This document shows positions 3,821 to 63,031 of a stretch of 64,000 nt of DNA, piece by piece. The stretch's first letter is position 1. Each line of letters opens with the position of its first letter. The DNA comes from Methyloferula stellata AR4. Lineage in GTDB: Bacteria; Pseudomonadota; Alphaproteobacteria; Rhizobiales; Beijerinckiaceae. Location: the NCBI RefSeq assembly GCF_000385335.1, contig NZ_ARWA01000001.1:2434001-2498000 (forward strand), read 5' to 3'. The notes below the pieces were generated by a model that saw nothing but the letters and a program-made list of their open reading frames with translations, did no database searches and had not been told where the DNA came from. The position numbers and the translations under genes are program-made.

Positions 3821-3931
3821 TGGTCTTCGTTGTGCTTTCGCCTTCACGAAACAATTGATCGTCCCGACCCCTTTGGGGCGACGGTGGCTGCCATATTTCC
3901 CTCCTGGATTGAACCGGGGAAGGGACCTATC

Positions 3932-4505: not shown

Positions 4506-4563
4506 GTTAGAAAAAATGAAAAAGAACGCCATTGGGATGCCGGATGCGTTTCCGGCATGTGCC

Positions 4564-6506: not shown

Positions 6507-6544
6507 TAAAAACAATAAGGCTCCGCCATTTCTGGCGAAGCCTT
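6507..6544 (-). terminator. Intrinsic terminator of erpA
   Basis: On the minus strand AAGGCTTCGCCA-GAAA-TGGCGGAGCCTT forms a 12-bp stem (one T-G wobble) with a GAAA loop, followed by ATTGTTTTTAAA. It begins 19 bases after the erpA stop. Confidence 0.88.
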
Positions 6545-6562
6545 GCTTGAAATCGAAGGATT

Positions 6563-6913: not shown

Positions 6914-7041
6914 GGGGAAAACCTCGGAATGATTGGGACTGGAGGAGGCCTCCGCGCCACAGCGCTTGCCTCGTTTCGATTTAGAGAAGATACGTCGCCT
7001 TGCCCCTAACTGCAACAAGTTAGGCCGGAAAACGAGTTTTC

Positions 7042-8262: not shown

Positions 8263-8279
8263 GGCGCGATACTATCGCC

Positions 8280-10061
8280 ATGAATATTTTTGCTGAATTC
8301 CAAGAGCGCATCGCATCGCATCTGGCGCGGATCGTGGCTTCCGGCCGCTTGCCGGCCGATCTCGATCTCGGCCGTTTTGTCGTCGAGCCGCCGCGCGACG
8401 CGACGCATGGCGATCTCGCGACCAATGCCGCCATGGTCTATGCGAAAGAAGCCAAGGCTTCCTTTGCCAATCCGCGCCAGCTCGCAACCGAAATCGCGGC
8501 CGTTCTTGCCGACGATCCAGATGTTGCGCAAGCCGAAGTGGCGGGTCCTGGCTTCATCAATATCCGCCTAAAGCCGGAAGTCTGGAGCAAGGTGCTGCTG
8601 GCGGCCTTGACGCAAGGCGCGGCTTTCGGCCAAGCGGGACCGGCGCCGGCGCTCGCCGCCCGCAAGATCAATATCGAATATGTCTCGGCCAATCCGACGG
8701 GCCCCATGCATGTCGGCCATTGCCGGGGGGCGGTCTTCGGCGATGCGCTCGCCAATCTTCTCGCCTATGCCGGCTATGACGTGACGCGCGAATATTATAT
8801 CAACGATGCCGGCGCGCAGATCGATGTGCTCGCACGCTCCGCTTATCTGCGTTACCGCGAGGCGACGGGCGAGGAGATCGGTGCGATCCCGGAAGGGCTT
8901 TATCCTGGCGACTATTTAAAGCCCGTCGGCGAAGCGCTTGCGAACGAATACGGGATATCTCTCCTCAGCAAGACGGAGCCCGAATGGCTCGAGATGGTGC
9001 GGGTCATTTCGATCGAGGCCATGATGGGCATGATCCGCGACGATCTCGCCGCGCTCAACATCACCCATGAAGTCTTTTTCTCCGAACGCTCGCTGACGCG
9101 CGGCGCGGAAGGCGACGCGGTCATACGCGCGATCCAAGACCTGCGCGACAAAGGTCTCGTCTATGAAGGCCGTTTGCCGCCGCCCAAGGGCCAGCTCCCG
9201 GACGATTGGGAGGATCGCGAACAGACCCTGTTCAAGTCGACCGATTTCGGCGACGACGTCGACCGGCCTTTGATGAAGTCGGACGGCAGCTACACGTATT
9301 TCGCCTCCGATATCGCCTATCACAAGATCAAAATCGAACGCGGCTATGCGACTTTGATCGATGTCTGGGGCGCCGATCATGGCGGCTATGTCAAACGGAT
9401 GCAGGCCGCGGTCGCGGCGCTGTCCGGCGAGAAAACCGTCCTCGACGTGAAACTATGCCAGCTCGTGAAGCTGATGCGGAACGGCGAGCCGGTCAAAATG
9501 TCGAAACGGGCAGGGGATTTCGTCACTCTGCGCGAAGTCGTCGATGAGGTCGGCGTCGATGCCGTGCGCTTCATGATGCTGTTTCGGAAAAACGACGCGC
9601 CGCTCGACTTCGACTTGAGCAAAGTCGTGGAACAGTCGAAAGACAATGCGGTTTTTTACGTGCAATATGCTCATGCACGCGGAAAATCAGTGCTACGGCA
9701 GGCGCTTACCACATTTGCCGGAAGTGATTTCTCAACCGAGAGCTTGGCTGGAGCCGACCTCTCTTTATTGACCGACGAGGGTGAGCTCGGGCTTATAAAG
9801 TTGATCGGGCAGTTTCCGCGCGCGATAGACGCTGCCGCCGCGGCGCACGAGCCGCATAGAGTAGCGTTTTATTTGCACGACCTGGCCTCGCTCTTCCACT
9901 CGCATTGGACGCGGGGCAAAGATCAGCCACAATTACGCTTTGTTAATGAAGATACTTCAAATTTGACCTTTGCGAGGCTGGCTTTGGTGACAGCCTTGAC
10001 TTCGGTTCTTGCCTCGGGACTGAATATCCTGGGTGTCAGCGCACCAGAAGAAATGCGTTAA
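8280..10061 (+). CDS. argS: Arginyl-tRNA synthetase
   Basis: A 593-residue class I aminoacyl-tRNA synthetase charging tRNA-Arg. The N-terminal Add-1 domain occupies about residues 1-110; the HIGH motif is HVGH at 144-147 and the KMSKS equivalent is KMSK at 406-409. The C-terminal anticodon-binding DALR domain is present ([15 protein letters not shown] onward). It follows dgt by 17 bases and precedes the SPOR gene by 143. From about 9640 to the end the codon choice shifts toward ATA, AGA, CTA, TTA and TCA, codons largely avoided in the first two thirds; see findings. Function is certain. Confidence 0.97.
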
Positions 10062-10204
10062 AACGCGGATTTAGAGTGCGTTTTACAGGACTTACGGGAA
10101 ATAAACGCAAATTTTTGCCCGTTTGTTGCTGGATCGCCGCGATATTTTGGCCCGAAAGTCATGATGCTATTGGGCCGAATCTTACGGTTGCGAGGTATTG
10201 AGTT

Positions 10205-11767
10205 ATGAGTGAGCCAGCAGCTAAGCGCCCGATGATCGATCTGGACGAATTCGAACGGCGTCTGCGCCGTCCGACGCCAGCAGCTGTGCATTCTCAGGAG
10301 GATCCGCTGGCCGAACTCGCCCGCCTTGTCGGCGGCGTCCAGGAAGATCCATTCAAAAACGTTTTCGAGCAGGACCGGCATCTGCCGCGTTCGCCGCGCT
10401 TCGCATCGGCTCAGGGCGGCGCAGCGCGCGTCGTGCAGACGGCGCCGCGGGTGCAGGCCGCGCCGCGCGTCGTGCAGGAGGATTTCGGCGCCGAGGACTA
10501 TGCTGCGAGCGATCAGCATTTGCATGGCACGATTCATCCGCAAGTTTATGCCGATCAAAGCTATGCCGAACCGGATTATGCCGAGACTTATGCTCACGAC
10601 GAGCAGGCGATGATGGCGGCTCAGGCCGGCTATCACGCGGCCTCGGCCGAAGATGAGAATTATGCCTGGTCGGAGGCGGGAGCGCCTGTCGGGGCTGCCG
10701 AGCCGATGAGGTCTGCGCTCGCCGATGCGCCGCGTTCGCGCCGGCCGCTTTATGTGATGGCTGCGATCATCGCAGCAGGCATCGCGGGGATCGGCGTCAG
10801 CTTCGCCTATAAGAGCAAGTCCGGGCCGCATGAACTCGCTATGATCAAGGCGATGAGCGGCCCGACCAAGGTCCAGCCGGATTCGCCCGGCGGCGCTGAT
10901 GTTGCGAACCAGGATGCATCCATTCTCGACAAGACGCCGCAGCCGACGCCGGTGGCACTCGTCGATCACCAGGAGCGGCCCGTCGATCTCGGGCGTCAGC
11001 AGGCTGCGCCGCGGACCATCATGGCGGATGCCGCAGGATCCATGGGCGCGGCCAGCGTTCCCGTTCCTCCGCCGCCAACCAGCCAGCAAGCCGCGGCACC
11101 GCAGAACATCCAGTCCTATGGGATCGGTGCTCTGATCGAACCGAAGAAGGTCAAGACCGTCTCCGTGCGGTCCGACGGCACGCTGCTGCCAAACGATACG
11201 CCGCCGCAAATGCCGCAAAGCGCGCCCGCCGCTGCTCCTGCCATGCAGGCGCCGCATCCGGCAGCGCCCGCGACCTCGGGTGCAACGACGCCGAAGCCCG
11301 CAACGCCGAAGTCGACGGCACGTGTCGTCACCACGCCGAAGCCGCAGTCGGCCGAGCAGCAGGTTGCCGACGACAACGGCGAGGCGCCCACTGCGCCGGC
11401 CGCCGCCACGCCGGTGGCTCCGGCGCCCGTGAAACCGAAGCCTGCATCTGCGAAGCCGATGAAGGTCGCCGAAACGGAAACCACGGATTCCATTCCGGAT
11501 GGCGCGGACAAACATGCCTCGGGCGGTTCATTCGCCGTGCAATTGGCAGCTCCCGGATCCGAACAGGAAGCGCATGACCTGACCAACAAGCTCGCATCGA
11601 AATTCGGCAGCGAGCTTAAGGGCCACCACCTCACCTATCACCGGGCGAAAGTGAACGACAAAACCGTCTTCCGTGTCCGCGCGGCCGGGATGTCTCACGA
11701 AGAGGCAACAGGGATTTGCCAGAAGCTCCAGGCGAGCGGTGGCTCCTGCTTTGTCGCAAAGGACTAG
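10205..11767 (+). CDS. SPOR-domain membrane protein
   Basis: A 520-residue bitopic envelope protein. Residues 1 to about 178 form an acidic, disordered cytoplasmic region; a single membrane segment follows at about 180-200 (LYVMAAIIAAGIAGIGVSFAY); then a long Pro/Ala-rich periplasmic linker; and a C-terminal SPOR domain (about 442-520) with GGSFAVQLAAPGSEQEA and FRVRAAGMSHEEA. SPOR domains bind denuded septal peptidoglycan, so a role at the division site is inferred. It has GAGG nine bases before the ATG. Position between argS and nagZ is conserved in Rhizobiales, and coupling to nagZ supports a cell-wall role. Confidence 0.88.
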   Translation: MSEPAAKRPMIDLDEFERRLRRPTPAAVHSQEDPLAELARLVGGVQEDPFKNVFEQDRHLPRSPRFASAQGGAARVVQTAPRVQAAPRVVQEDFGAEDYAASDQHLHGTIHPQVYADQSYAEPDYAETYAHDEQAMMAAQAGYHAASAEDENYAWSEAGAPVGAAEPMRSALADAPRSRRPLYVMAAIIAAGIAGIGVSFAYKSKSGPHELAMIKAMSGPTKVQPDSPGGADVANQDASILDKTPQPTPVALVDHQERPVDLGRQQAAPRTIMADAAGSMGAASVPVPPPPTSQQAAAPQNIQSYGIGALIEPKKVKTVSVRSDGTLLPNDTPPQMPQSAPAAAPAMQAPHPAAPATSGATTPKPATPKSTARVVTTPKPQSAEQQVADDNGEAPTAPAAATPVAPAPVKPKPASAKPMKVAETETTDSIPDGADKHASGGSFAVQLAAPGSEQEAHDLTNKLASKFGSELKGHHLTYHRAKVNDKTVFRVRAAGMSHEEATGICQKLQASGGSCFVAKD

Positions 11768-11794
11768 GCCGGAACTTGAAAGCACACAATTGAG

Positions 11795-12811
11795 ATGCGC
11801 GCTTTCGTCTGCGGCTGCTCCGGCTTGGTGCTGAGCGAGGACGAACGCGCCTTCCTGCGTGAGACTGAGCCTTTCGGTCTTATTCTCTTCAAGCGAAACA
11901 TCGACACACCCGCGCAAGTGAAGGCGCTTGCCGACGCTTTCGCCGATTGTCTCGGCCGCGACCATGCCGCGATCCTCATCGATCAGGAAGGCGGAAGGGT
12001 CCAGCGCCTCGGGCCGCCGCATTGGCGGACCTATCCGCCGGCTTTCCGCTTCGGGCAGACGCGTCTGCCGCTCGACCGGCAAGCCAAGCTCGTGCGCGGC
12101 GCCGCGCGGATCATGGCGCATGATCTCCGGGAACTTGGCATCACGGTCGATTGTCTGCCGGTGCTCGATGTGCCGGTGCCGGGCAGCCATAGCGTCATTG
12201 GCGACCGCGCCTATGGCGATACGCCCGAGACCGTGGCGACGCTCGGCCGAGCTGCGGCCGAAGGGCTGCTCGATGGCCATGTGCTGCCGGTGATGAAACA
12301 TGTGCCGGGCCACGGCCGCGCCATGGCCGACAGCCATATGGAACTGCCGATCGTAACGGTGCCGGTCGAAGCTTTGAGGCAAAGCGATTTCGCGCCGTTC
12401 AAGGCAAACGCGGATCTGCCCGCCGCGATGACTGCGCATGTCGTCTATGAGGCGCTCGATCCCGAGCGGCCCGCGACACTCTCGCCTCTGGTCGTCGAGA
12501 CGATCATCCGGCATGAAATCGGCTTCGACGGGCTGTTGATCAGCGACGATCTCTCGATGCGCGCGCTGAAAGGCTCATTTCGCGACCGGGCCGAGGGCCT
12601 TTTCGCGGCAGGCGTCGACATAGCGCTTCATTGCAACGGCGACCTGCAAGAGGCGCGCGCCGTCGCCGCCGGCACGCCTCTGCTCGAAGGCAAAGCTCTG
12701 GAACGGGCGGACGCCGCCATGGCCAGGCTCGGCGGCAAGCCTGCCGCGGGCGATTTCGATCCTGTGGACGCCTGGAAAGCGATCGAAGCCGAGCTTGCGA
12801 TCACCGCTTGA
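11795..12811 (+). CDS. nagZ: NagZ, beta-N-acetylhexosaminidase (GH3)
   Basis: A 338-residue glycoside hydrolase family 3 enzyme that removes GlcNAc from muropeptides during peptidoglycan recycling in the cytoplasm. Visible signatures are LIDQEGGRVQRL, the histidine-rich catalytic loop KHVPGHGRAMADSH, and LISDDLSMRAL, which contains the nucleophile aspartate. Length matches bacterial NagZ. It begins 27 bases after the SPOR gene and is followed by scpA, the usual Rhizobiales order. No signal peptide is present, as expected. Confidence 0.95.
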   Translation: MRAFVCGCSGLVLSEDERAFLRETEPFGLILFKRNIDTPAQVKALADAFADCLGRDHAAILIDQEGGRVQRLGPPHWRTYPPAFRFGQTRLPLDRQAKLVRGAARIMAHDLRELGITVDCLPVLDVPVPGSHSVIGDRAYGDTPETVATLGRAAAEGLLDGHVLPVMKHVPGHGRAMADSHMELPIVTVPVEALRQSDFAPFKANADLPAAMTAHVVYEALDPERPATLSPLVVETIIRHEIGFDGLLISDDLSMRALKGSFRDRAEGLFAAGVDIALHCNGDLQEARAVAAGTPLLEGKALERADAAMARLGGKPAAGDFDPVDAWKAIEAELAITA

Positions 12812-12817
12812 TCGGGC

Positions 12818-12843
12818 CATGATTCCGATAAAGTAACCATGCG
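12818..12843. repeat. Degenerate copy of the GCATGATC/CCGAAAAGT repeat
   Basis: CATGATTCCGATAAAGTAACCATGCG keeps the ends and part of the inner arm of the palindromic family but the right inner arm is lost. It lies seven bases after the nagZ stop. Confidence 0.4.
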
Positions 12844-12859
12844 TTAGGAGATTGATTCG

Positions 12860-13657
12860 GTGGCGGACCTGCCGTTCGACGAACAAGAGCAAATCAAGAG
12901 CGAAGGCGAGGCTGCTTTTCTGGTCGATCTCGACGGTTTCGAAGGGCCGCTCGACCTTTTGCTCGATCTTGCGCGCCGGCAGAAGGTCGATCTGCACAAA
13001 ATCTCGGTCCTGGCGCTTGCCGATCAATATCTCTCCTTCATCGCCGAGGCGCGGCGCGTGCGGCTCGAACTCGCCGCCGATTATCTCGTCATGGCGGCGT
13101 GGCTTGCCTATCTGAAATCCAGGCTTTTGCTGCCGCAAGGTCCGCAAGATGCGGAGCCCGACGGTACCGAGCTTGCCGAAGCGCTCGCGTTGCGCCTGCA
13201 AAGGCTGGAGGCGATCCGCGCCGCGGCCGATGCGCTCGTCAACCGGCCGCGCCTCGATCGCGATGTCTTCCGCCGCGGCCAGCCCGAGCAGCTCAACATC
13301 ATCTCGACCACGTTTTGGCAGGTGAGCCTCTACGATCTTCTGTCCGCCTATGCACGGCAAAGACAGAAACAGGCGCTCTCGACCATGCATATGCCAAAGC
13401 GCTTGGTCTGGTCGCTGATCGAGGCGCGAGCGGCGCTTGAGAAGCTCGCCGGTCAGGCCTTGGACTGGACGTCGCTTGATTCCTATCTCATCGAATATTG
13501 CACGACGCCCGAGATGCGGCGCACGGTTCGCGCCTCGGCTTTGTCGGCCATGCTCGAAATGGTCAAGGAGGGTACGGTCGCGATCAGACAGGACCGGGCC
13601 TTCGCCCCGATCTGGATCAAGAGTGCGCCGCGTGTGGTGGATGCGGCACCGGTTTGA
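12860..13657 (+). CDS. scpA: ScpA, segregation and condensation protein A
   Basis: The 265-residue kleisin subunit of the SMC-ScpAB condensin that compacts and segregates the chromosome. The N-terminal signature FEGPLDLLLDLARRQKVDL and the helix DYLVMAAWLAYLKSRLLLP are diagnostic. The start is GTG at 12860, supported by AGGAG nine bases upstream. The C-terminal winged-helix region (RRTVRASALSAMLEMVKEG) is intact. It is followed 35 bases later by scpB. Confidence 0.94.
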   Translation: MADLPFDEQEQIKSEGEAAFLVDLDGFEGPLDLLLDLARRQKVDLHKISVLALADQYLSFIAEARRVRLELAADYLVMAAWLAYLKSRLLLPQGPQDAEPDGTELAEALALRLQRLEAIRAAADALVNRPRLDRDVFRRGQPEQLNIISTTFWQVSLYDLLSAYARQRQKQALSTMHMPKRLVWSLIEARAALEKLAGQALDWTSLDSYLIEYCTTPEMRRTVRASALSAMLEMVKEGTVAIRQDRAFAPIWIKSAPRVVDAAPV

Positions 13658-13692
13658 TGGCACTCGGCGGTTAAGTTTTGGAGGAGAGATTT

Positions 13693-14502
13693 TTGGGCGA
13701 GATCGCAAGATTGTTTCCGCACCTTGAAGGTGAAACGAAGATCGAGAACGAATCTGAGTCCTCTGACGCGCTTTTTGGCGAGGCCATCCGCATCGCGGAA
13801 GCCATGCTGTTTGCCGCGGCTGATCTTCTGGACGAAGGCGAGATCGCCAGGCGCATGCCCAATGGCATCGCCGTTTCGCAGGTGCTGGCGCAATTGAAGC
13901 AGGATTATGCCGCGCGCGGCGTCAATCTCGTGCGGGTGGGTCATAAGTGGATGTTCCGCACGGCGGCGGATCTCGGCTGGCTTTTGTCGCGGACCGAAAC
14001 CGAGCCGAAGAAACTCTCCCGCGCGGCACTCGAGACGCTTGCGATCGTCGCTTATCATCAGCCTGTGACGCGCGCCGAGATCGAGGATATTCGCGGCGTC
14101 GGCATTTCAAAAGGCACGCTCGATCTGTTGCTCGAAACCGGCTGGGTGCGTCTGCGCGGTCGCCGCAAAGCGCCGGGACGCCCTGTCACTTATGCAACGA
14201 CCGAGACTTTCCTATTGCATTTCGGCCTCGAAGCGATCGGCGATCTGCCGGGCCTCGAAGAGCTGAAAGGGGCCGGGCTTTTCGACGGCCGCCTGCCGAA
14301 GGAATTCCAGATTCCGCTGCCGAACGACGATCTGGCTTTGACCGCGGACGAAGATCCGCTCGAAGACGAAGCCCTGGAGCCCTTGCTCGACATCGACCAG
14401 CCTGATCCGGAGCGCGAGCAAGAGCCGGAAGAGGGCGACGGCGAGGGCGACGATTTCAATGACAAGCCGCTCGAAGACGACGACGGCGAGATCGAAGATT
14501 AG
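13693..14502 (+). CDS. scpB: ScpB, segregation and condensation protein B
   Basis: The partner of ScpA in the SMC complex; about 269 residues with two winged-helix domains at about 20-190 (AEAMLFAAADLLDEGEIA, LETLAIVAYHQPVTRAEI, IRGVGISKGTLDLLL, GRPVTYATTETFLLHFGL as separate motifs). The start is taken as TTG at 13693 because GGAGGAG lies about seven bases upstream; TTG at 13678 would place that site inside the gene. The last 60 residues are extremely acidic (Asp/Glu-rich tail), common in alphaproteobacterial ScpB. The twin-arginine genes that usually follow scpB in this order are absent. Confidence 0.92.
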   Translation: MGEIARLFPHLEGETKIENESESSDALFGEAIRIAEAMLFAAADLLDEGEIARRMPNGIAVSQVLAQLKQDYAARGVNLVRVGHKWMFRTAADLGWLLSRTETEPKKLSRAALETLAIVAYHQPVTRAEIEDIRGVGISKGTLDLLLETGWVRLRGRRKAPGRPVTYATTETFLLHFGLEAIGDLPGLEELKGAGLFDGRLPKEFQIPLPNDDLALTADEDPLEDEALEPLLDIDQPDPEREQEPEEGDGEGDDFNDKPLEDDDGEIED

Positions 14503-14543
14503 AAGCACGATCCGGGGTCAGGACTTCATCGTGACCTGAGGAG

Positions 14544-14620
14544 CGTCATTGCGAGCGAAGCGAAGCAATCCAGAGGCAGCCCGCTCAGACAATGGCATGG
14601 ATTGCTTCGGAGCCATAAGC
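14544..14620. repeat. CGTCATTGCGAG palindromic repeat, partly truncated
   Basis: The left arm (CGTCATTGCGAGCGAAGCG then AAGCAATCCAGAG) is complete; the right arm survives only as TGGATTGCTTCGGAGCC. The element lies in the 220-base gap between the convergent scpB and antiporter genes, which otherwise holds only hairpins. Confidence 0.75.
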
Positions 14621-14652
14621 CGGCCTTCAGCCGGGCGTCTTTATTCTTTTCG

Positions 14653-14675
14653 ACGGGCGTGCAGAGCACGCCCGT
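14653..14675. repeat. Perfect 10-bp hairpin between convergent genes
   Basis: ACGGGCGTGC-AGA-GCACGCCCGT is a perfect inverted repeat with a three-base loop. There is no T-tract in either direction, so it may act as a barrier or transcript stabiliser between scpB and the antiporter gene. Confidence 0.5.
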
Positions 14676-14722
14676 TGGCTCACGGCTCGATGATTGAGTC
14701 CTGATCCTAAACCAGCGGTTTT

Positions 14723-15871
14723 TCAATGCTCAAAAATGAGCATGAAAAACGCCATGAAGAGGATGAGATGCACCGCGCCTTGCAGGACGTTGGTGCGGCC
14801 GCTCGCAAAGGTCACGACGCTGACGGCGAGCGTCAATAGCAGCATGAGAAAATCTGTGTGCTCAAGGCCAAGCGTGATATCGCGGCCGGTGACATGGCTG
14901 ACGATCAAAATCCCCGGCACGGTCAGCCCGATGGTCGAGAGCACCGAGCCCAGAAAGATGTTCACCGACCGCTGCAAATGGTTGGCAACGGCCGCGCGGA
15001 CGGCGCCGATGGCTTCCGGCGTTGCAACGAGAACCGCCATGATCACACCGCCGAGCACCGCCGGAGCGTGCATCGTCTCTAGGATATGATCGACCGGATG
15101 CGCGAGCTGCTCGGCCAGAAAAACGATCGGCAGCATATAGGCGGCGAGCAGAAGAGCATGCACGATGAACGGCGCCTCGCTTTTCTCGGCCTTATGATCC
15201 TCGGGGATTTCTCCGGCGACCGTGAAATAGCCGCGATGGCGGCCGGTCTGCATGGCGAGGAAGGCGCAATAGAGGATGCCCGAGGTCACGACGAGAAACA
15301 TCCGTTGCATGGTCGAGAGCGTCGGGCCCTCCGTCGTCAATGTGTAATTCGGCAGGATCAGTGCGAGCACGGCGAGCGGGATGATCACGCCGAGATAGGC
15401 ATTCGCGCCTTGCAGATTATAGTGCTGTTCGCGGTGGCGCCAGGCGCCGAGCAGCAAGGACAATCCCACCATGCCGTTGAGGACGATCATTATCACGGCG
15501 AACATGGTGTCGCGTGCGAGGGTCGGATTGTTGTCGCCGTGCGTCATCACGGCGGAGATGCTCATCACCTCGATCGAAGTGACCGACAAGGTCAGGATCA
15601 GCGTGCCATAGGGTTCGCCGAGCCGCAATGCGAGCTGTTCGGCGTGACGCACCACACTTAGAGCTGAGCCGAGCACGGTTGCGAAGAGCCATCCGAAAAT
15701 CAGAGCCCACCGGAAGGGGTTCGCCAGATCGGCAAGCAGAAAGTCGCCGGCGACGAAAAAGGCGAGACTCGTCGCGTAGCTAAAGCCTAAAAACCAATCT
15801 TCGCGGATGAGCTTTGATATTTGGACTTTCTTGCGCGCCGGTTGCGCCTGCACGTTTTGAAGCATAACCAT
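14723..15871 (-). CDS. ChaA-like cation/proton antiporter (CaCA family)
   Basis: A 382-residue inner-membrane protein with about eleven hydrophobic segments. It matches the ChaA-type Ca2+(Na+,K+)/H+ antiporters: the two alpha repeats are visible as LILTLSVTSIEVMSI (about 92-106) and VLVATPEAIGAVRAAVANH (about 270-290), each holding the ion-coordinating glutamate. The start is placed at ATG 15871 (MVMLQNVQAQ); a TTG at 15910 would give 13 more residues. It lies 117 bases downstream of a Crp-family regulator in the same orientation, so it could be cotranscribed with, or a target of, that signalling module. Ion specificity is not deducible. Confidence 0.85.
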   Translation of the reverse strand: MVMLQNVQAQPARKKVQISKLIREDWFLGFSYATSLAFFVAGDFLLADLANPFRWALIFGWLFATVLGSALSVVRHAEQLALRLGEPYGTLILTLSVTSIEVMSISAVMTHGDNNPTLARDTMFAVIMIVLNGMVGLSLLLGAWRHREQHYNLQGANAYLGVIIPLAVLALILPNYTLTTEGPTLSTMQRMFLVVTSGILYCAFLAMQTGRHRGYFTVAGEIPEDHKAEKSEAPFIVHALLLAAYMLPIVFLAEQLAHPVDHILETMHAPAVLGGVIMAVLVATPEAIGAVRAAVANHLQRSVNIFLGSVLSTIGLTVPGILIVSHVTGRDITLGLEHTDFLMLLLTLAVSVVTFASGRTNVLQGAVHLILFMAFFMLIFEH

Positions 15872-15988
15872 CCCGGAGTGATTTTGATCGCGAGACGGAA
15901 CTATATCCAATATCTCGACAATCCGCTTTAGGCTTGTCTCAATTTATGCGTATATTTGAAAGCTTGCCTTGACCATTTTTGATCGCGT

Positions 15989-16663
15989 CTACTCCGCGCC
16001 TGTTTCCCGCATGAGCTTCTCGCGGTCGCGGATCAAAATGCGCCCGCGGCCGAGATCGAGAAGGCCAGCGCGCCGCCAGATCTGCAATTGCCGGTTCACC
16101 GTCTCGCGCGCGACGCCGACATAATTCGCAAGCCGGTCCTGCGAGATGTGAATTTCCATGCCGAAATCCTCGACGAGGATGGCGAGCCGCCGCGCCAGGC
16201 GCACCTGAAACGGCAGCAGCGCCGTTTCCTCCATACGGTCGCTGACCCATCTGATGCGCTGGCATAAAAGCTCGATGACGCGGATCGCGACACGGGCATC
16301 TTTTTCGAGATAGGCAAGAAAGTCGCTGCGACGGAGCACGAAAAGCTCGCTGGCTTCCGCCGCTACGGCATCGGCCGTGCGTGCCTGGCCGTCGAAAAGC
16401 GCGATCTCGCCGAAAAGATCGCCGGGTCCAAGCACGTTCAAGGTCAGAGTGTCGCCGGACGGCGTGCCCGTTTCGATGCGGATCTGGCCGCGCCTGATGC
16501 CGTAAAGTGCATCGCCTTTGTCGCCTTTGACGAAAAGCGTCTCGCCTTCGGGCAAGGTGCGTTTCTGACAGAGACTGGCAAGCTTCTCGATCGCTTGCGC
16601 ATCGAGCCCGGCGAAGAACGGATTGATCCGTAGCAGCGCCGCGAAGTCGCCGGGCTTATTCAG
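15989..16663 (-). CDS. Crp/Fnr-family cyclic-nucleotide-binding transcription regulator
   Basis: About 224 residues with an N-terminal cNMP-binding beta-barrel (about 10-130), a dimerisation helix, and a C-terminal winged helix (ISQDRLANYVGVARETVNRQ). The phosphate-binding cassette is complete: GEIALFDGQARTADA, with the ribose-binding Glu and phosphate-binding Arg, so cAMP or cGMP binding is plausible. No ATG, GTG or TTG occurs near the expected N terminus. The best start is CTG at 16661-16663, which overlaps the TGA of the upstream cyclase gene and has GGAG seven bases upstream; a TTG at 16813 would add 50 Arg-rich residues encoded inside the cyclase gene. This tight coupling suggests the regulator reads the nucleotide made by that cyclase. 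Confidence 0.87.
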   Translation of the reverse strand: MNKPGDFAALLRINPFFAGLDAQAIEKLASLCQKRTLPEGETLFVKGDKGDALYGIRRGQIRIETGTPSGDTLTLNVLGPGDLFGEIALFDGQARTADAVAAEASELFVLRRSDFLAYLEKDARVAIRVIELLCQRIRWVSDRMEETALLPFQVRLARRLAILVEDFGMEIHISQDRLANYVGVARETVNRQLQIWRRAGLLDLGRGRILIRDREKLMRETGAE

Positions 16664-17808
16664 CTTCGCGCTCCGATGATCTCGAAGGCTTCGACGGCGC
16701 GGCGGAAGCCCTTCAGGTTGAGCGTGCCGATGGATCTGGCGTCGAATGTCTCTTCGATCACGTTGAAGACGCGCTGATCGACGAGGATCTGGCCGGGCTT
16801 GGCCTCGTCGCAAAGCCGCGAGGCAAGATTCGTCACCGTGCCGACCGCGGCATAATCGAAGCGGCGCTCGAAGCCGATCTTGCCCAAGGTTGCGTAGCCG
16901 AGCGCGATGCCGATTCCGAAGCCGAGATCATGACCGCGCTTGCGCCATGTCCGTGCGAGCACTTCGACGCTCTCGCGCATCTCGACCGCCATGCGCACGG
17001 CCCGCATCGTATGATCGGGGCAGGAGAGGGGGTCGTTGAAGAGGGTGAGAAGCCCGTCGCCTGCGAAACGTTCGAGCGTACCTTCATAGCGGTCGATCAA
17101 TTGCCCGAGTGCGTGATGGAATTCATGCAGGACCGCCATCACCTCTTCCGGCTCGGCGATCTCGGTAAACGCGGTGAAGCCGCGCAGGTCGCAGAAGAGG
17201 ACCGTGACTTCGCGCCTATGGCTGCGCAAAAGGTCTTCCTGCTCGCTGCTGGCCGCGATGACATCTGCGACCTGCGGCGACAAAAAGCGCTTGAGGCGGC
17301 TCATGCGTTCGATTTCGGTGACCTGTTCGGTGACTTTCTGAGCGAGCGACTGGTTCCAGTTCTCAAGCTGCTTGGTCTGCGCCGCCAGTTGCACGGTCTG
17401 ATCCTGAACGACATCGTGCAGAGCCTTGATCCGCAACATGGAGCGCACGCGCGCGATGAGCGCCGCCTGATCGAAGGGCTTCGTCAGATAATCGTCGCCG
17501 CCGGCATCGAGGCCGGCGACAATATCGGTGCGGTCGGCCTTGGCCGTCAGGAGAATGATCGGAACGAAGCCGAAGCGCTGATCCTGCTTCAAGATCTTCA
17601 GGACCGAAATGCCGTCGAGCTTCGGCATCATGATGTCGAGCAAGATGAGGTCGGGCAGATGTTCGCGGGCCTGGGTCAACGCCTCTTCGCCGTCCATAGC
17701 GGTCACGACCTCATAGCCATGCGCCTCGAGGCGCATGCGCACGATGTCGAGATTTTCGGGAACGTCGTCGACCGCAAGAATACGCGGCGGGCTGCGCACT
17801 GTTTCCAC
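16660..17808 (-). CDS. Receiver-domain class III nucleotide cyclase (response regulator)
   Basis: A 382-residue response regulator with an enzymatic output. Residues 9-125 form a receiver with phospho-acceptor D58, the acidic pair D14-D15 and K110. A coiled-coil linker (about 130-175) joins it to a class III cyclase domain (about 198-380). Metal-binding aspartates D207 and D251 and the transition-state residues N327 and R331 are present. The usual adenine-specifying lysine is replaced by R247 (GTLERFAGDG), while D318 is kept, so product identity is not certain. Start is GTG 17808; GTG 17799 has the better-spaced AGAGGG. It lies between the kinase gene and the Crp-type gene, which it overlaps by four bases. 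Confidence 0.9.
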   Translation of the reverse strand: METVRSPPRILAVDDVPENLDIVRMRLEAHGYEVVTAMDGEEALTQAREHLPDLILLDIMMPKLDGISVLKILKQDQRFGFVPIILLTAKADRTDIVAGLDAGGDDYLTKPFDQAALIARVRSMLRIKALHDVVQDQTVQLAAQTKQLENWNQSLAQKVTEQVTEIERMSRLKRFLSPQVADVIAASSEQEDLLRSHRREVTVLFCDLRGFTAFTEIAEPEEVMAVLHEFHHALGQLIDRYEGTLERFAGDGLLTLFNDPLSCPDHTMRAVRMAVEMRESVEVLARTWRKRGHDLGFGIGIALGYATLGKIGFERRFDYAAVGTVTNLASRLCDEAKPGQILVDQRVFNVIEETFDARSIGTLNLKGFRRAVEAFEIIGARS

Positions 17809-17952
17809 CCTCTGAAAAAACTGCTGGGTACACTATTACCTGAAAAACGTCGAGATTCGCCGAGTTTTTGGTCTTAGGCCGTTTGTTTCAGGAAGGTGGG
17901 GCATTTCGGGCGCATGTGTATTGGACCTGCCCGAACTTTTTGAGATTATGCT

Positions 17953-20301
17953 TTAGGCTGCCCGGCGCTCCTGATCGACGCGGATCGGGATCAGAACCCG
18001 GAAAATCGATCCCGTACCAGGGGCCGACGTCACGCTGATCGTCCCGCCATGCATGTCGACGAAGCGTTTACTGATCGAGAGCCCAAGCCCGGTACCGCCC
18101 TTGATCCTTGTGCTCGTATTGTCGGCCTGCTGGAAAGCCTCGAAAATACGGGCTTGGTCTTCGGGCGCGATGCCTGGCCCCGTGTCTTCCACGCAGAGTT
18201 CGAAATCTTCGTCGATCACCTTGGCGCGGATAGTCACGCCGCCGGTCTCGGTGAACTTGATCCCATTGCTCACAATGTTCAAAAGCACCTGCGTCAGGCG
18301 CCGTTCGTCGCCGAAGCCCGCCGGAAGATTGTCGGCGATCTCTTGAGTGACCTTAAGGCCCTTGGCATGAGCGAGCGAGCCGGTGGTGCCGACGACCGCT
18401 TCGATGACGTTTCGCATCGAATAGGCTTCGAGCATCAATGACATTTCGCCGGCCTCCATTTTGGAGAGGTCGAGAATATCGTTGATGAGACCCAAGAGAT
18501 GGGTGCCATTGCTCTGCACGCGGGCGATGACGGGCTTGGCGCGTTCCGGCAATTCGCCGTAAAGCCCGTCCTGCAAAAGTTCAGCATAGCCCAGAACCGC
18601 GTTGAGCGGCGTCCTGAGTTCATGGCTCATATTGGCGAAGAAGAGCGATTTATGCTCGCTCGCGATCGCCAATTGGCGTCCCTTTTCCTCGACCTCATGG
18701 AAGAGATGCGCATTGTTCATGGCGAGCACGCATTGGTTCGCGAAGGATTGCATGAGAGCGACCGTATTGGCCGGAAACCGTCCGGGCGTGCGGCGTTCCA
18801 CGATGAGAACGCCGAGCACATCGCGCGAGCCGACGAGCGGCACGATCAGAGCCGATTTGAATCCGGCCGCGAGCGTCGCGGCGCGCAAGGGAAAATCCAT
18901 GGCGTCGGCGATCTGCGGAATCTGGATCGGTTTCTTATGCGCGGCGATCTCGCTCAAAAGACCATCGATGCGGTTGAGCCGCACCGCGCGGATGGCCTGC
19001 ACGAAACCGGGATCGAGCCCATGCGCCTCGGCGAGCTTGAAGGAGCGCAGATCGCGGTCGAAACTATAGATCGCGCCGCCTTCCGCCTGAGCAAGATCGG
19101 CGGCGCGTCCGACGATGGTTGCGAGAACGTCGGTCAGATCGAGAGACGCCGCGACCGAGCGTCCAACTTCATCAAGCGCCAATAATTCGCGGACCGATTG
19201 GGCAAGTTCTCTTGTCCGGTCTTCGACCTTCAGCTCCAACCGGACGTAGGAGTCCTGAAGCTGCCGCGCCATGCGGTTGAACTCATTGGCGAGAGCTTCG
19301 ATCTCGTCGCCGGTATGGACATCGATCGGATGGTTGAAATCGCCCGCCGCAAGCCGCGAGGCGCCGGCCTCTAGCGCTTTGATCGGGACGCTCATGCGCC
19401 GGGCCAGCGCAATGCTGGTGACGATGCAAAGCGCCAGGCTGAAGGCGAAAAGCCAAAGCAGCCGCGCCAGGAGCGCATAGACCGGCCCATAGGCCTGCGA
19501 CAGCGGCTCTTCGACGAATAAGAACCAGTTCAGGCCGGGAATGGGCGCATAGGCCGAAAGCACCTCCTCGCCGTCGAGGTTCTTGCCGATCTCGACCGGC
19601 TGTTCGGCGCCTTTCATGGCTGCGGCGACTTGCGGCAGATGCGAGAAATCGGCATGGCGCGACGCGACGCCCGCATTGGCATGGGTGATGAGGCGGCCGT
19701 CCGCCGTCACGATATAGGCATAGACGCCGGAGCCGGCTTGAATGCCGTTGACGATATCGGACAGGTAGCGAAGCTCGATATCGGCGATCGTCACGCCGCC
19801 GCGATTGCCCGGATGCGCCATGAAGAGCTGCATGCGCGGGCCATTCGGCGTGAAGCGCACGGGACCGAATTGCGGCTTGTCGATCTGCGCGGAGCGAAAT
19901 GCCAGCGCATAATCGGCCTCGGTCGCGGTAGCCGATCCATCGCGCGAGAGATTGAGAATCAGGCGGCCGGACCCGTCGAGCTGCGCGATCCCCGCGATCG
20001 CAGGCGTATGTTCGAGGATTGTTTCGTCATCCGCGCGGCGCTGCTCGGATGTGACGGAACTGGCGCGGGTCGCCCAACTGATCTGCCGCTCCATTTCGGC
20101 GAGGAACTGCTCGACCTTGAGCGCGGCGGCATCCGCCTTCTCGCCCTGCGCGTGCAAAAGCGCATGTTTCGTGTCGCGATAGGTGATCCAAATATCCGTC
20201 GCGCCAATGATCGCGAGGACAAAAATCATCAGCCCGACAAATGAGGTGACGTATTTCCCGAAGAGCGTCCGCCGCCAGGGCCGATTGAGGTGAAGGTTCA
20301 C
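17953..20301 (-). CDS. Membrane sensor histidine kinase (Cache-like sensor, HAMP, GAF, HisKA, HATPase)
   Basis: A 782-residue kinase starting at GTG. Membrane segments are at about 18-40 and 283-303, enclosing a roughly 240-residue periplasmic Cache-like sensor. Then come HAMP (to about 360, TGDEIEALANEFNRM), a coiled coil, a GAF domain (about 385-540), HisKA with phospho-acceptor H560 in FANMSHELRTPLNAVLGY, and a HATPase_c domain with the N box NIVSNGIKF, DTGPGIAPED and GTGLGLSISKRFVDMHGG. It carries no receiver of its own. The receiver-cyclase gene begins 144 bases downstream in the same orientation and is its likely partner. The ligand sensed is unknown. Confidence 0.9.
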   Translation of the reverse strand: MNLHLNRPWRRTLFGKYVTSFVGLMIFVLAIIGATDIWITYRDTKHALLHAQGEKADAAALKVEQFLAEMERQISWATRASSVTSEQRRADDETILEHTPAIAGIAQLDGSGRLILNLSRDGSATATEADYALAFRSAQIDKPQFGPVRFTPNGPRMQLFMAHPGNRGGVTIADIELRYLSDIVNGIQAGSGVYAYIVTADGRLITHANAGVASRHADFSHLPQVAAAMKGAEQPVEIGKNLDGEEVLSAYAPIPGLNWFLFVEEPLSQAYGPVYALLARLLWLFAFSLALCIVTSIALARRMSVPIKALEAGASRLAAGDFNHPIDVHTGDEIEALANEFNRMARQLQDSYVRLELKVEDRTRELAQSVRELLALDEVGRSVAASLDLTDVLATIVGRAADLAQAEGGAIYSFDRDLRSFKLAEAHGLDPGFVQAIRAVRLNRIDGLLSEIAAHKKPIQIPQIADAMDFPLRAATLAAGFKSALIVPLVGSRDVLGVLIVERRTPGRFPANTVALMQSFANQCVLAMNNAHLFHEVEEKGRQLAIASEHKSLFFANMSHELRTPLNAVLGYAELLQDGLYGELPERAKPVIARVQSNGTHLLGLINDILDLSKMEAGEMSLMLEAYSMRNVIEAVVGTTGSLAHAKGLKVTQEIADNLPAGFGDERRLTQVLLNIVSNGIKFTETGGVTIRAKVIDEDFELCVEDTGPGIAPEDQARIFEAFQQADNTSTRIKGGTGLGLSISKRFVDMHGGTISVTSAPGTGSIFRVLIPIRVDQERRAA

Positions 20302-20423: not shown

Positions 20424-22286
20424 TTAACGGCCACGTCTGCCGGGCTGGTCCGGCATGCCGCCGCCGCCAAGGAGACCGCCCAAAAGATCGCCCATGCTTT
20501 TCATCGTCTCTGCGTCGGGCATTTGGCCGCCGGCGCCGAGCCCGCCACCAAGTCCGCCGCTACCGCCCGCGCCACCGCCTAGAAATTCCTGGCCAAGCGT
20601 CGAGAGCTTTTCGATCGCGTGCGGATCGTTCAACAGGCCGCTAAGATCGGCTGAAACCTGCGGATCGGTCCAAGCTCCGCGAACGAGAATGGCCGCGCCG
20701 AGATCGAGGGGTGAGACCGCCGCTTGCTGTTTGGCCGCGGCGGCATCTCTGCCGGCCTGGGTCACGACCTTCGGCTCGAAGCGCAGATCGAAGGTCTGAT
20801 CGGCAAGCCCGACGTTGCCTTTGCCGCGTGCATCGATGATCGGGCTCGCAGCATGCAGATCGTTGGTGACGGCCATGCCGTCCTTGATCGCGAAGGTTCC
20901 GTCGAGAACTGTCACATCGATGCGGTTCGACAGGCTTTGCCAAGCTGGCGGCAGATAGGCGAGAACAGCGCGCAAGGTCGAAGGGGCGTTGATGCCGGTG
21001 ATCGCGCCGTCATGGAAATGCAGGCGGCTCGTGCCCGTCAAAGCGCTCGCCATGGCATGCGAATCGGAGCCGGTCGTCTTCAAGCTCACGGCCATGTCGA
21101 GCCTGCCTTCGAGATGATTGAAACGCGCGGCATCGGCGAGAAGCGGGGCGGTGTTGACGCTCGCAAGCACCATGTCGAGGCTTTCCTGCGGCACTGGCCG
21201 ATTGCCGTCGACGGCGAGATCGGCGCGCATCGTCCCTTGGTAGAAGTCGGCGCTTTGCAGGCCGAGCTTTAGAAACCCGTCGCTCAGATTGGCTTTCGCC
21301 TGGAGCGATCCGGCCTTCACCGATCCGGCTTTCAATGTTTTGACGCGCGCATCGATGGCAATGTCCAAAAGCCGCGACGGGCTCAGATCCAAAGGCTGAT
21401 CATTGAGCCGGTCGAGCGTGTCGCGGAGGTCTCCGGCAGGGACCGCGTCGAGATTGACGGCGCCGATCGACAGCTCATTGGCGACGAGCGTGAGCGAGAG
21501 GGCCGGAACGTCTTTCGACCAGTCGAGCGCGCCTGTCGCTTTCACCTGATTGGGGCTGAGCTGCTGCGGGCCCGCCGCGAAATGCAAGGCGTTATCGGTC
21601 AGAAGAATCTCGCTTTGCAATGTCACCGGCGTCGCGCCGAGATCGGCGTTGATCTCGGCTTTCAGCGTGGTCGGTGTGCCCGCGGCAAGATCCTTGAGCG
21701 AAGCCGCCTCGGCTTTGAATCTGACGTCATGTCCGCTCAGTCGGCCGTTGCCCGAAAGATCGAGCGCGCCATTGTCCGCGGCCTGCACACGAAGGTCGAT
21801 GGCTTCGGCATGGACCTTCGCCTTGCGCGCCTTGTTCTCGATCGTGATGGCGCCGTTCTGGATCGTGACGCCGTCGAGCTTCGCCTCCTCGGCGAGACGG
21901 CTCATCTTGTTTTCGGGGACGGTAGGCGCGGCCTTCTTCGTCTCGCCCTCGACAATATAGAATTGCGGGTGGATCAAGGTTGCATGCGCGATGCGCGGTT
22001 TGCCTGAAACGAGGCATTCCCAGGTGAGATCGAAACTCACCCGGTCCACCGCGAGCACGGGATCGTGGCTTGGATCGGAATCGGTCAAGCGCAGATCATC
22101 GCCGGTGAAATGAAGCTCGGGCCAAAAGCCGAGATCGGTTTTCGTGAAATGGGCCTGGAGACCGGTCTTGTCTTCAATGCGCCGGGCGAGCGCATCGACG
22201 AAAAGATGTTCGAGCGCAAATCCCGCGCCGACGGCCGCCGCGGCTATTGCGAGACCGGCCGTGCCAATTTTCAAGGCCCATTTCAT
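20424..22286 (-). CDS. AsmA-family membrane-anchored envelope protein
   Basis: A 620-residue protein with an N-terminal membrane anchor (residues 5-27) and a long periplasmic region. AsmA hallmarks are the early DALARRIEDKTGLQ and FTGDDLRLTD, repeated beta-strand segments, and the C-terminal AsmA_2-like part with LDGTFAIKDGMAVTNDL, IDARGKGNVGLADQTFDLRF and LVRGAWTDPQVSADL (separate motifs). The tail after about residue 575 is a Gly-rich low-complexity stretch. AsmA proteins are related to lipid-transport bridge proteins and affect outer-membrane composition; the exact role here is not known. It lies 122 bases downstream of the kinase gene start on the same strand. Confidence 0.85.
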   Translation of the reverse strand: MKWALKIGTAGLAIAAAAVGAGFALEHLFVDALARRIEDKTGLQAHFTKTDLGFWPELHFTGDDLRLTDSDPSHDPVLAVDRVSFDLTWECLVSGKPRIAHATLIHPQFYIVEGETKKAAPTVPENKMSRLAEEAKLDGVTIQNGAITIENKARKAKVHAEAIDLRVQAADNGALDLSGNGRLSGHDVRFKAEAASLKDLAAGTPTTLKAEINADLGATPVTLQSEILLTDNALHFAAGPQQLSPNQVKATGALDWSKDVPALSLTLVANELSIGAVNLDAVPAGDLRDTLDRLNDQPLDLSPSRLLDIAIDARVKTLKAGSVKAGSLQAKANLSDGFLKLGLQSADFYQGTMRADLAVDGNRPVPQESLDMVLASVNTAPLLADAARFNHLEGRLDMAVSLKTTGSDSHAMASALTGTSRLHFHDGAITGINAPSTLRAVLAYLPPAWQSLSNRIDVTVLDGTFAIKDGMAVTNDLHAASPIIDARGKGNVGLADQTFDLRFEPKVVTQAGRDAAAAKQQAAVSPLDLGAAILVRGAWTDPQVSADLSGLLNDPHAIEKLSTLGQEFLGGGAGGSGGLGGGLGAGGQMPDAETMKSMGDLLGGLLGGGGMPDQPGRRGR

Positions 22287-22335: not shown

Positions 22336-22707
22336 TCAGTGTTGGACGCGGGCCCATTTCTGGCCGCCGCAGATCATGCCGCCCATGACGCAGCCTTCGA
22401 CCTTCAAAGTCTCGTCGTCTTGCATCGACATGCGCGCCGCATATTTTTGCCCATCGCGGACGTTGACGACCGTGCCCGACCACAAAGCGCCGTTCGGGCG
22501 CATGCTGATCAAAACTTCTTGGCCGACCACGTTCTGCCCCTCTTGCGACCAGGACACGAAGCCGCACAAATTGCTGCCGCAGGGACGGATCGAGACATTA
22601 GCGCTTCCGTCGGCGATGCGCCATTCCCCGACGGGGCCAGCCAGGACTTGCGCGGCAAAAGACATCGAAAGAACGGAAGCGGCTCCGATCAAAGACAGAA
22701 TTTTCAT
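22336..22707 (-). CDS. DUF2147 secreted small protein
   Basis: A 123-residue protein with a cleavable signal peptide (to about VLA-GP, residue 23) and a DUF2147 domain, recognised by GPVGEWRIADGSANVSI, the paired-cysteine CGSNLCGFV and the C-terminal LKVEGCVMGGMICGGQKW. Four cysteines suggest disulfides in the periplasm. AGAGGA lies five bases before the ATG. DUF2147 proteins are widespread lipocalin-like small secreted proteins of unknown role. It is divergent from the epimerase-like gene and about 50 bases upstream of the AsmA gene on the same strand. Confidence 0.82.
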   Translation of the reverse strand: MKILSLIGAASVLSMSFAAQVLAGPVGEWRIADGSANVSIRPCGSNLCGFVSWSQEGQNVVGQEVLISMRPNGALWSGTVVNVRDGQKYAARMSMQDDETLKVEGCVMGGMICGGQKWARVQH

Positions 22708-22837
22708 GACGTCCTCTTGGTGCTGTGAAGTGGGAATGGCTTCGACTTAAAAAGCATGATCGAGTCGGGTTTTGGCTTCTGTGATCGAGGTCACACTCGA
22801 GGGGAGGGAGTCGCGATCTTGTGCAGGAGCGTTGCAA

Positions 22838-24924: not shown

Positions 24925-25614
24925 ATGCAAACTCTTGGACGTGTTCCTTTCTTTAAAGATATCTCGGATCTCGAATTCGATCGGTTTGATCGCCGCTGCG
25001 CCTGGCGCCGTTACGACGACGGCGAGGTCGTGGTCGATTACGAGGATGAATCTTCCGACGTCTATTTCATCATCGCGGGCGAAGTCCGCATCTTGATCCG
25101 GACGATGGCCGGCAAGGAAATCATCCTGGCCGAAATGCGGGCTGGGCAGTTTTTCGGCGAATTATCGGCGATCGACAGCACGAAGCGCTCCGCCAATGTC
25201 ACGGCTTTGACCAAGTCGGAATTGTGCATCATGCCGGCGGCCGTCTTCCGCGAAATCATTTTCGCTTCGCCGATCAGCTGCGACAGGGTGTTGCGCCTGC
25301 TGACGGGCCGCGTCCGTGAACTCAACGCGCGTCTGGCCGAACATTCCATCTTCGACCTGAAGCACCGGCTTTATTCGGAGCTTTTGCGCATGTCGAACCC
25401 GCGTCCCGGCAAGCCCGCCGAAAAAACCGTGACCCCGCCGCCGTTCCATCATGTGCTGGCGGCGCGAATCGGCTGCCGGCGCGAGCAGGTCACGCGCGAG
25501 CTCTCCGCCATGGCGCAGGAGGGCCTCATCGAAAAGACGCGTGGCGCCTTGGTTCTGCTGAAGCCGCAGGTCCTTGAAGCGCGGCTCAACGAGGCCATGC
25601 GCGAAGACGGGTGA
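24925..25614 (+). CDS. Crp/Fnr-family transcription regulator
   Basis: A 229-residue regulator with an N-terminal cNMP-binding fold (about 5-120) and a C-terminal HTH (FHHVLAARIGCRREQVTREL). The cassette GELSAIDSTKRSANV keeps the Glu and Arg needed to bind a cyclic nucleotide; there is no N-terminal cysteine set for an FNR-type Fe-S cluster. It differs clearly from the Crp protein at 15989. It lies 123 bases after folD and converges on the FTR1 gene. Its targets are unknown. Confidence 0.88.
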   Translation: MQTLGRVPFFKDISDLEFDRFDRRCAWRRYDDGEVVVDYEDESSDVYFIIAGEVRILIRTMAGKEIILAEMRAGQFFGELSAIDSTKRSANVTALTKSELCIMPAAVFREIIFASPISCDRVLRLLTGRVRELNARLAEHSIFDLKHRLYSELLRMSNPRPGKPAEKTVTPPPFHHVLAARIGCRREQVTRELSAMAQEGLIEKTRGALVLLKPQVLEARLNEAMREDG

Positions 25615-25636: not shown

Positions 25637-25680
25637 GCATGATCTTGGTCCGAAAAGTCCGCAGCTTTTCGCGATCATGC
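25637..25680. repeat. Palindromic repeat, GCATGATC/CCGAAAAGT family
   Basis: GCATGATC, TTGGT, CCGAAAAG-TCCG-CAGCTTTTCG and GATCATGC: the outer arms are perfect and the inner arms slightly diverged. It fills the gap between the convergent Crp and FTR1 genes and could double as a terminator for both. Confidence 0.82.
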
Positions 25681-26514
25681 TTTATGCGTCGCGAGCCTTT
25701 GCATCGGCTTCGGCGGCGGCGTCATCAGTTTCATCAGGCTGAAGATGATCAGCAGCGCGCCGAGATAGACGGCAAGCTGCAATTGCGTCGGCTGGTCGGA
25801 ATAGCCGAGCAGCGTCTGGAACACCCGGCCGATCATGCTGTTTTCCGGCAGGACGCCGGTCGTGTTCCACATGATCCTGTCGAATGTCGTGATGATGCCT
25901 GCCTGCTGCAAAAGCCCGGCGCTCTGTGCCGCCATTCCGGCCGCCATGAAGGCGATCAACACGCCGGTGACGCGGAAGAGATAGCGAAGCGGAATATTCG
26001 CCAGACCGACAAAGGTGACGAAGCTGATGGCGACGCCGAGCCCGAGGCCCGTGAGGCCGCCGGCCAGAAGGCCGAGCCCAGACACGCCGCTCGAAATAAC
26101 GATGCCATAGAGAAACAGCACGACTTCGGCGCCTTCGCGCAGAACCGCGATGCCGACGACGACCGCAAGTGCCAAGAGAGACCGCGCGCCGGTTTCGACG
26201 TCATGGCCGATCTGGCGGATGTGATCGCTCATCTCGCGGCCATGCCGCGCCATCCAGACATTGTGCCAGGTCAGCATCAAAACGGCGACTGCGAGGATCG
26301 AGGCGTTGAAGACTTCCTGCCCGAAACCTTCGAGCGCGTCTGAAATCTCTTTCGCGAAGACGGCGACGATCGCCGCGGCGGCGAGACCACTCAGAAGCCC
26401 GGCGACGATATAGGTCATCCGGCCCGGAATGTTCTTGGTGGCGGCCAGCACGATGCCGACGATCAGTCCTGCCTCGATGACTTCACGCAAGACGATGATC
26501 AACGCACCAATCAT
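25675..26514 (-). CDS. FTR1/EfeU-type iron permease
   Basis: A 279-residue inner-membrane protein with about seven membrane helices. The two REXXE iron-binding motifs of the FTR1 family are visible: REVIE at 10-14 and REGAE at 126-130. The start is placed at ATG 26514 (MIGALIIVLREVIE) with AGGAG nine bases upstream; the longer frame to 26565 has no support. The usual partners of EfeU (EfeO, EfeB) or of P19-type systems are not adjacent, so it looks like a stand-alone permease. The family imports oxidised ferrous iron; substrate assignment rests on the motifs. Confidence 0.88.
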   Translation of the reverse strand: MIGALIIVLREVIEAGLIVGIVLAATKNIPGRMTYIVAGLLSGLAAAAIVAVFAKEISDALEGFGQEVFNASILAVAVLMLTWHNVWMARHGREMSDHIRQIGHDVETGARSLLALAVVVGIAVLREGAEVVLFLYGIVISSGVSGLGLLAGGLTGLGLGVAISFVTFVGLANIPLRYLFRVTGVLIAFMAAGMAAQSAGLLQQAGIITTFDRIMWNTTGVLPENSMIGRVFQTLLGYSDQPTQLQLAVYLGALLIIFSLMKLMTPPPKPMQRLATHKA

Positions 26515-26582
26515 TCTCAAGAACTCCTGATCGGGAAGGCTGGCGGCGGCCCTGACTCTAGCCAAGCATCAAGCAGGCCAGG

Positions 26583-26609
26583 AAAAGCGCGATCACCGTG
26601 GATCGCGCT
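26583..26609 (-). terminator. Intrinsic terminator downstream of opgH
   Basis: On the minus strand AGCGCGATC-CACGGT-GATCGCGCT is a perfect 9-bp stem followed by TTTCC. It lies 110 bases after the opgH stop and 69 bases before the FTR1 start, so it should separate the two transcripts. Confidence 0.7.
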
Positions 26610-26719
26610 GCGATGATCATATGACAATCTTAGAAATAGCTCACAGATAGCCGTTCCGCAATAAGTCGCTGGAATCTTTAGAACTATTATAATCTTGAAA
26701 GGTCAGGACTTTGCCTGCG

Positions 26720-63028: not shown

Positions 63029-63031
63029 GCG

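Follow-up and report, generated by a model that had tools for sequence, protein, structure and literature searches.

The cyaD1-clr locus of S. meliloti encodes a class III cyclase and a cyclic-nucleotide-dependent Crp-type regulator, Clr, in one place, and a Clr target gene is located there too; the cyclases of this bacterium are described as receptor-like in the available excerpts of the report (PMC4222275). In the RC1_3785-gcyB-gcyC-cgrA cluster of Rhodospirillum centenum, a Crp-type receptor is clustered with cyclase-subunit genes and activates them through TGTGA-N6-TCACA in an arrangement called feed-forward; this system differs from the one described below in being dependent on cyclic GMP (cGMP), its gcyB-gcyC products are called non-catalytic subunits, and no receiver-cyclase is mentioned in the available text (PMC4681086). 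In Anabaena, the histidine-kinase-like protein AphC purportedly phosphorylates and activates the cyclase CyaC, raising cyclic AMP (cAMP) (PMC4284465). Furthermore, the linked Xanthomonas genes XC_0250/XC_0249 encode a cyclase and its cyclic nucleotide monophosphate (cNMP) receptor, although the receptor, a diguanylate cyclase bearing a cNMP domain, is not a Crp protein, and the cyclase has tetratricopeptide repeats rather than a receiver, as far as the excerpts at hand describe them (PMC3770947). The present analysis concerns a run of six genes in a 64,000-nucleotide stretch of the Methyloferula stellata AR4 genome (contig NZ_ARWA01000001.1, positions 2,434,001 to 2,498,000; hereafter, the window), which encode a DUF2147 protein, an AsmA-like protein, a sensor histidine kinase, a receiver fused to a class III nucleotidyl cyclase (receiver-cyclase), a Crp-type regulator (Crp1), and a cation antiporter. 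Here, a cyclase and a Crp protein are encoded together as in S. meliloti, and a kinase input to the cyclase is proposed as in Anabaena; on the excerpts available, there are precedents for the two-component input, for the cyclase, and for the local receptor individually. We know of no two-component step in the cyaD1-clr system and of no Crp protein linked to Anabaena CyaC, which is a large hybrid protein. A limited literature search yielded no paper on this locus in Methylocella or Bradyrhizobium and, among the papers listed, no direct match for the receiver-cyclase, and we did not find described in it the combination, one receptor with exchanged sensors, or a shared AsmA gene and operator.

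On balance, the six genes probably constitute a sensor-to-second-messenger operon that feeds back on itself through Crp1. They occupy window positions 22707-14723 on one strand, and the features on which the argument draws are as follows.

22336-22707, minus strand: DUF2147 protein, probable first gene of the operon (open reading frame (ORF), Pfam, sister genome)
20424-22286, minus strand: AsmA-family protein (Pfam)
17953-20301, minus strand: sensor histidine kinase with dCache, HAMP, GAF, HisKA (H560), and HATPase_c (Pfam, motifs, relatives)
16660-17808, minus strand: receiver (D58) fused to a class III nucleotidyl cyclase (Pfam, PDB alignment, residue table, motifs)
15989-16663, minus strand: Crp-type regulator Crp1, with a probable CTG start (Pfam, junction, start codons, alignment, orthologues)
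14723-15910, minus strand: CaCA/ChaA-like cation antiporter, start TTG 15910 or ATG 15871 (Pfam, relatives)
22780-22795, no strand assigned: exact CRP-type palindrome TGTGA-N6-TCACA ahead of the first gene (pattern scan; kept in the sister genome G001)
24925-25614, plus strand: second Crp-type regulator, Crp2 (Pfam; 83% identical in M. tundrae)

The initial annotation had described the last four genes, from kinase to antiporter, as lying on the same strand; all four are confirmed by the ORF list and Pfam at these positions with key motifs intact, and the two upstream genes are additions to it. The DUF2147 and AsmA-like genes are separated by 49 bases, the AsmA-like gene and the kinase by 122, and the kinase and receiver-cyclase by 144, the last as previously given; the 117 bases previously given between Crp1 and the antiporter hold for ATG 15871, and TTG 15910 would leave 78. 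The run is limited by a divergent mutarotase-like gene (named by eye) on one side and a convergent scpB on the other. In the sister genome G001, of the same genus, gene order is identical over what its three broken contigs cover.

The residues required for a two-component input and for cyclization are intact. The kinase comprises Pfam domains dCache_1, HAMP, GAF, HisKA, and HATPase_c, with the phospho-acceptor H560 and ATPase motifs, and the receiver-cyclase matches Response_reg (9.1e-30), with D58, T88, and K110, and Guanylate_cyc (1.1e-20), with metal residues D207/D251 and transition-state residues N327 and R331, the same letters standing in all aligned rows. At the purine-specifying positions, where adenylate cyclases have Lys with Thr/Asp, the residues are Arg247/Ala320. 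In PDB alignments, the corresponding residues are Lys/Thr in CyaB and Glu/Gly in 2w01, which we take to be the guanylate cyclase Cya2. Of 25 receiver-type rows, 20 have Arg at the first position, 3 His, 1 Cys, and 1 Lys; of 13 distinct Bradyrhizobium fusion cyclases, all with Ala at the second, 8 have Arg and 5 Lys. The Cache-HAMP and CHASE2 cyclases found beside Crp1 orthologues have Ser/Thr. The interchange of Arg and Lys is a weak hint that ATP may be the substrate; an assignment of cAMP as product from sequence was given up after the PDB alignment of these positions. Only two class III cyclase domains are found in this genome; the other belongs to a CHASE2 protein (window 60812-63031, minus strand) with Lys/Ser at the purine positions.

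Crp1 matches cNMP_binding (2e-24) and HTH_Crp_2 (1.1e-15), and its gene ends at 15989. Upstream of it, the only in-frame ATG, GTG, or TTG is TTG 16813, located 154 bases within the cyclase gene, and a start at the next in-frame codon downstream, TTG 16555, would cost the protein 36 residues. In an alignment, CTG 16663 falls opposite the Met of 16 Bradyrhizobium Crp proteins. This codon shares bases with the cyclase stop (CTGA, 16663-16660), and a Shine-Dalgarno-like GGAG stands seven bases ahead of it; the CTGA junction and the GGAG are identical in G001. From the Met alignment and from CTGA and GGAG in both genomes, we infer a CTG start and stop-start coupling of Crp1, so that the overlap of the Crp gene with the cyclase stop, as first annotated, is borne out with a rare start codon and is kept in the sister genome. 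Matched stoichiometry of cyclase and Crp1 by such coupling is plausible in view of the overlap. The recognition helix of Crp1 holds R, E, and R as in E. coli CRP, in which these residues have a recognized role. The claim that Crp1 has the residues needed to bind a cyclic nucleotide is borne out in part: the phosphate/ribose cassette is complete (G85, E86, R95, and T96). At the two positions that make base contacts in S. meliloti Clr, T140/T141 in the available excerpts (PMC10127613), Crp1 has V140/S141, and its orthologues have Q, M, L, T, or V at the first and S at the second. The Clr structure (7PZA) is the second-best PDB match of Crp1.

Crp1 recurs beside class III cyclases. An orthologue (E <= 1e-58) is found in 21 of 397 genomes of the order, the present genome included. 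Together, 24 distinct genomes were compared, namely the 20 others from this search, three regions (L118-L120; L118 is on the same contig as L173), and the two of the genus. An intact class III cyclase, with metal and transition-state residues checked, is located within about 5 kb of the Crp1 orthologue in 19 of them: both genomes of this genus, 13 of 16 Bradyrhizobium (a label taken for 14 of the 16 from the named genome behind G052), all three of another genus of the family, and the single genome of family f29; in one Bradyrhizobium (L168), the contig end leaves the matter undecidable. In a control of five genomes (G000, G001, G052, G054, and G062), a listed cyclase lies within 6 kb of 5/5 Crp1 orthologues vs. 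0/40 Crp paralogues, the closest misses being 8.3, 9.8, and 10.8 kb away; the control omits cyclase matches weaker than about 2.5e-9 and therefore says nothing on degenerate cyclases, and contig ends hide some neighbours. This recurrence supports a putative synthase-receptor pairing of cyclase and Crp1.

The cyclases near Crp1 have four sensor arrangements. In this genus, the two-component split of kinase and receiver-cyclase stands next to Crp1; in Bradyrhizobium, the cyclase is fused to dCache-like, HAMP, and GAF domains without a kinase or receiver (Pfam on L119, with dCache scoring below its cut-off); L157 and L159 have a dCache-HAMP-cyclase fusion; and L154 and L158 have a CHASE2 cyclase. 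In Bradyrhizobium, an AsmA gene is located between the fusion cyclase and the divergent Crp gene, and its single match in the present genome is the AsmA gene of this operon (25% identity). A cyclase tree explains the architectures by three changes only, although it is poorly resolved in parts, and its long outgroup branches and many open forks allow no direction of change to be claimed.

The proposed operator is conserved in the genus. Exact TGTGA-N6-TCACA occurs at four sites in the 4.24 Mb genome, and the reversed control pattern at none; the surroundings of the other three sites were judged by ORF reading only. The site ahead of the operon is separated from the DUF2147 start by 72 nt; an exact site that differs in two spacer bases stands ahead of the DUF2147 gene of G001, at a distance of 73 nt. 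A looser pattern, TGTGWCN4GWCACA with <=3 mismatches, gave 26 window hits vs. 60 on average over five mononucleotide shuffles and was discarded; its only hit kept, the single one with one mismatch, is this same exact site. In Bradyrhizobium, TGTG(A/T)CN4G(A/T)CACA is present in 15/15 Crp-AsmA intergenic regions examined (16 genomes; L168 is cut), which are not independent because the genomes are related. This palindrome matches the Clr consensus GTNNCNNNNGNNAC, as given in the excerpts available (PMC10127613). Upstream of Crp in L154 and L158, an exact and a one-mismatch site are found. A second exact palindrome common to both species of the genus (L186 2009-2024 and L189 3449-3464) is located between MarR-like and L,D-transpeptidase-like genes (named by eye). 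Separately, a 20 kb region surrounding the Crp1 orthologue of L155 (family f11) contains six exact TGTGA-N6-TCACA sites (3931-16572), far above the number elsewhere.

In the operon proposed here, the Cache/HAMP/GAF kinase would sense a periplasmic, and perhaps also a cytosolic, cue and phosphorylate D58 of the receiver-cyclase, which phosphorylation may activate to make cAMP or cGMP; the translationally coupled Crp1 would bind this nucleotide and act at CRP-type palindromes, the first target being the one before the DUF2147 gene, and the operon, presumably one transcript, would thereby feed back on itself. The output would comprise a few other sites besides the genes of the operon itself (DUF2147, AsmA-like, and the antiporter, the last in this genus). 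A wider proposal is more tentative and, in our view, rather doubtful: Crp1 may be a portable receptor kept with class III cyclases while sensors are exchanged and may form, with the AsmA-like gene and operator shared by this genus and Bradyrhizobium, a cell-envelope circuit that would be self-amplifying if the feedback is positive, with a purine specificity other than the textbook adenylate type.

Several observations weigh against the feedback operon. Within the run, the 122- and 144-base gaps are long enough for promoters, and a promoter scan is uninformative (3 found vs. 1.7 expected, sd 1.1). Among the Crp1 orthologues, L155 and L156 have only a degenerate cyclase, 4.6 and 4.3 kb away, scoring 23.1 and 24.0 bits vs. 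the Guanylate_cyc cut-off of 21.9 and with the transition-state Asn replaced (by eye), and a search around Crp1 in two Bradyrhizobium, L160 and L171, revealed no cyclase. No palindrome was found between Crp1 and its cyclase in L157 and L159 or close to Crp in these two, nor close upstream of Crp in L155 and L156. Among 41 genomes of kin, comprising one of the same genus and otherwise mostly one per genus, the receiver-cyclase was not found (E <= 1e-40) in 37; two of the four matches involve the cyclase part only, and both matches that include the receiver come from the genus. A metagenome-assembled genome (MAG) of Methylovirgula has the DUF2147, kinase, and receiver-cyclase genes and no recognizable palindrome ahead of DUF2147. 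Finally, M. tundrae has DUF2147, kinase, and receiver-cyclase with a one-mismatch palindrome before DUF2147, which is one of four one-mismatch hits in 360 kb of 23 related loci, and it has no Crp1, its best Crp match being 30%. This site is the strongest result against giving the operator to Crp1 alone. As M. tundrae keeps the near-match palindrome without Crp1 and also retains Crp2, the operator may be read by Crp2, whose gene starts 2.1 kb beyond the palindrome and whose product carries G, E, R, and S in the phosphate cassette and R-E-x-V-x-R in the recognition helix. That the cyclase feeds Crp2, with Crp1 a recent rider, is nevertheless unlikely, though it deserves weight, because the recurrence near cyclases belongs to Crp1 and not to its paralogues, and Leu/Asn stand at the base-contact positions of Crp2. 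Beyond Crp2 (window 25675-30486, minus strand) lie an FTR1-type iron permease-like gene and mdoH- and mdoG-like glucan-synthesis genes (named by eye).

The kinase/receiver-cyclase pair itself is spread over many phyla. Of 591 relatives of the receiver-cyclase in named genomes, the best 80 were kept, and 23 of these loci (L008-L029 and L042; 51-72% identity) were examined, the other 57 being excluded for <=37% identity over the protein or a partial match only. A related kinase is located upstream on the same strand in 21/23 loci; the exceptions are L012, which is truncated at its contig end, and L020, whose kinase gene lies on the opposite strand. An extra receiver stretch lies nearby in 22/23, confirmed by Pfam as a separate one-domain protein in L010 only, and is missing in M. 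tundrae (L008) as in this window. No Crp-like ORF or antiporter was found in any of the 23 loci, all outside the genus (flanks of <=10 kb, with some contigs short), and a Crp gene beside the pair as a general rule was rejected. M. tundrae and the Methylovirgula MAG share with this window the DUF2147 and mutarotase-like genes ahead of the pair, without AsmA; since the unit stands there without AsmA, Crp, and antiporter, those three were either added around it in this genus or lost elsewhere. As a separate observation, a resistance-nodulation-division (RND) pump gene near the receiver-cyclase of M. tundrae (L008 12686-15751, minus strand) and one beside Crp in Bradyrhizobium (L119 2484-5642, plus strand) are 63% identical, and no match of this pump was found within the window.

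The pair might therefore work alone, with Crp1 and the antiporter being chance neighbours gained at the 3′ side, as the 23 loci outside the genus would have it; we consider this improbable for the run as a whole, because class III cyclases with four different sensor arrangements are repeatedly found near Crp1 and because the cyclase and Crp1 overlap stop to start. For the antiporter alone, chance proximity does about as well as the feedback operon. This protein matches Na_Ca_ex (5.1e-30) and does not reach the cut-off of the ChaA equivalog PRK10599 in NCBIfam (269.9 vs. 505 bits); it is patchy, occurring in 13 of the 41 kin genomes, and no cyclase or Crp was found within the 1.5 kb flanks of its relatives in 11 other genomes. 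It is linked to the other genes only in the two genomes of this genus, and the antiporter as a conserved output was rejected. The initial annotation had envisaged a closed circuit of four genes with a dedicated local receptor and an ion-transport output. As one conserved unit, this circuit is not supported, given the 23 loci, and neither is the antiporter as its dedicated output. By the initial annotation's own criterion, separation of the genes in relatives, the antiporter leg fails, and the link to Crp survives only where the genes are arranged differently; Crp1 as a local receptor is favoured by the intact cyclases beside its orthologues and their absence beside paralogues, but not by the pair itself, which lacks a Crp neighbour outside the genus.

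The proposed feedback operon read through Crp1 bears on a wider matter. The Bradyrhizobium genomes G052, G054, and G062 have 38, 48, and 38 class III cyclase domains and 9, 12, and 11 Crp-like proteins, respectively, and to our knowledge the partnerships between cyclases and receptors in such genomes are mostly unknown. A receptor that keeps its cyclase partner while the sensor changes would provide a handle on which cyclase serves which receptor. With only two class III cyclase domains in the Methyloferula stellata genome, the circuit would be testable with little background. Furthermore, as the same kind of sensory front end and the same enzyme family occur with and without phosphotransfer, direct and two-component control of a cyclase may be compared.

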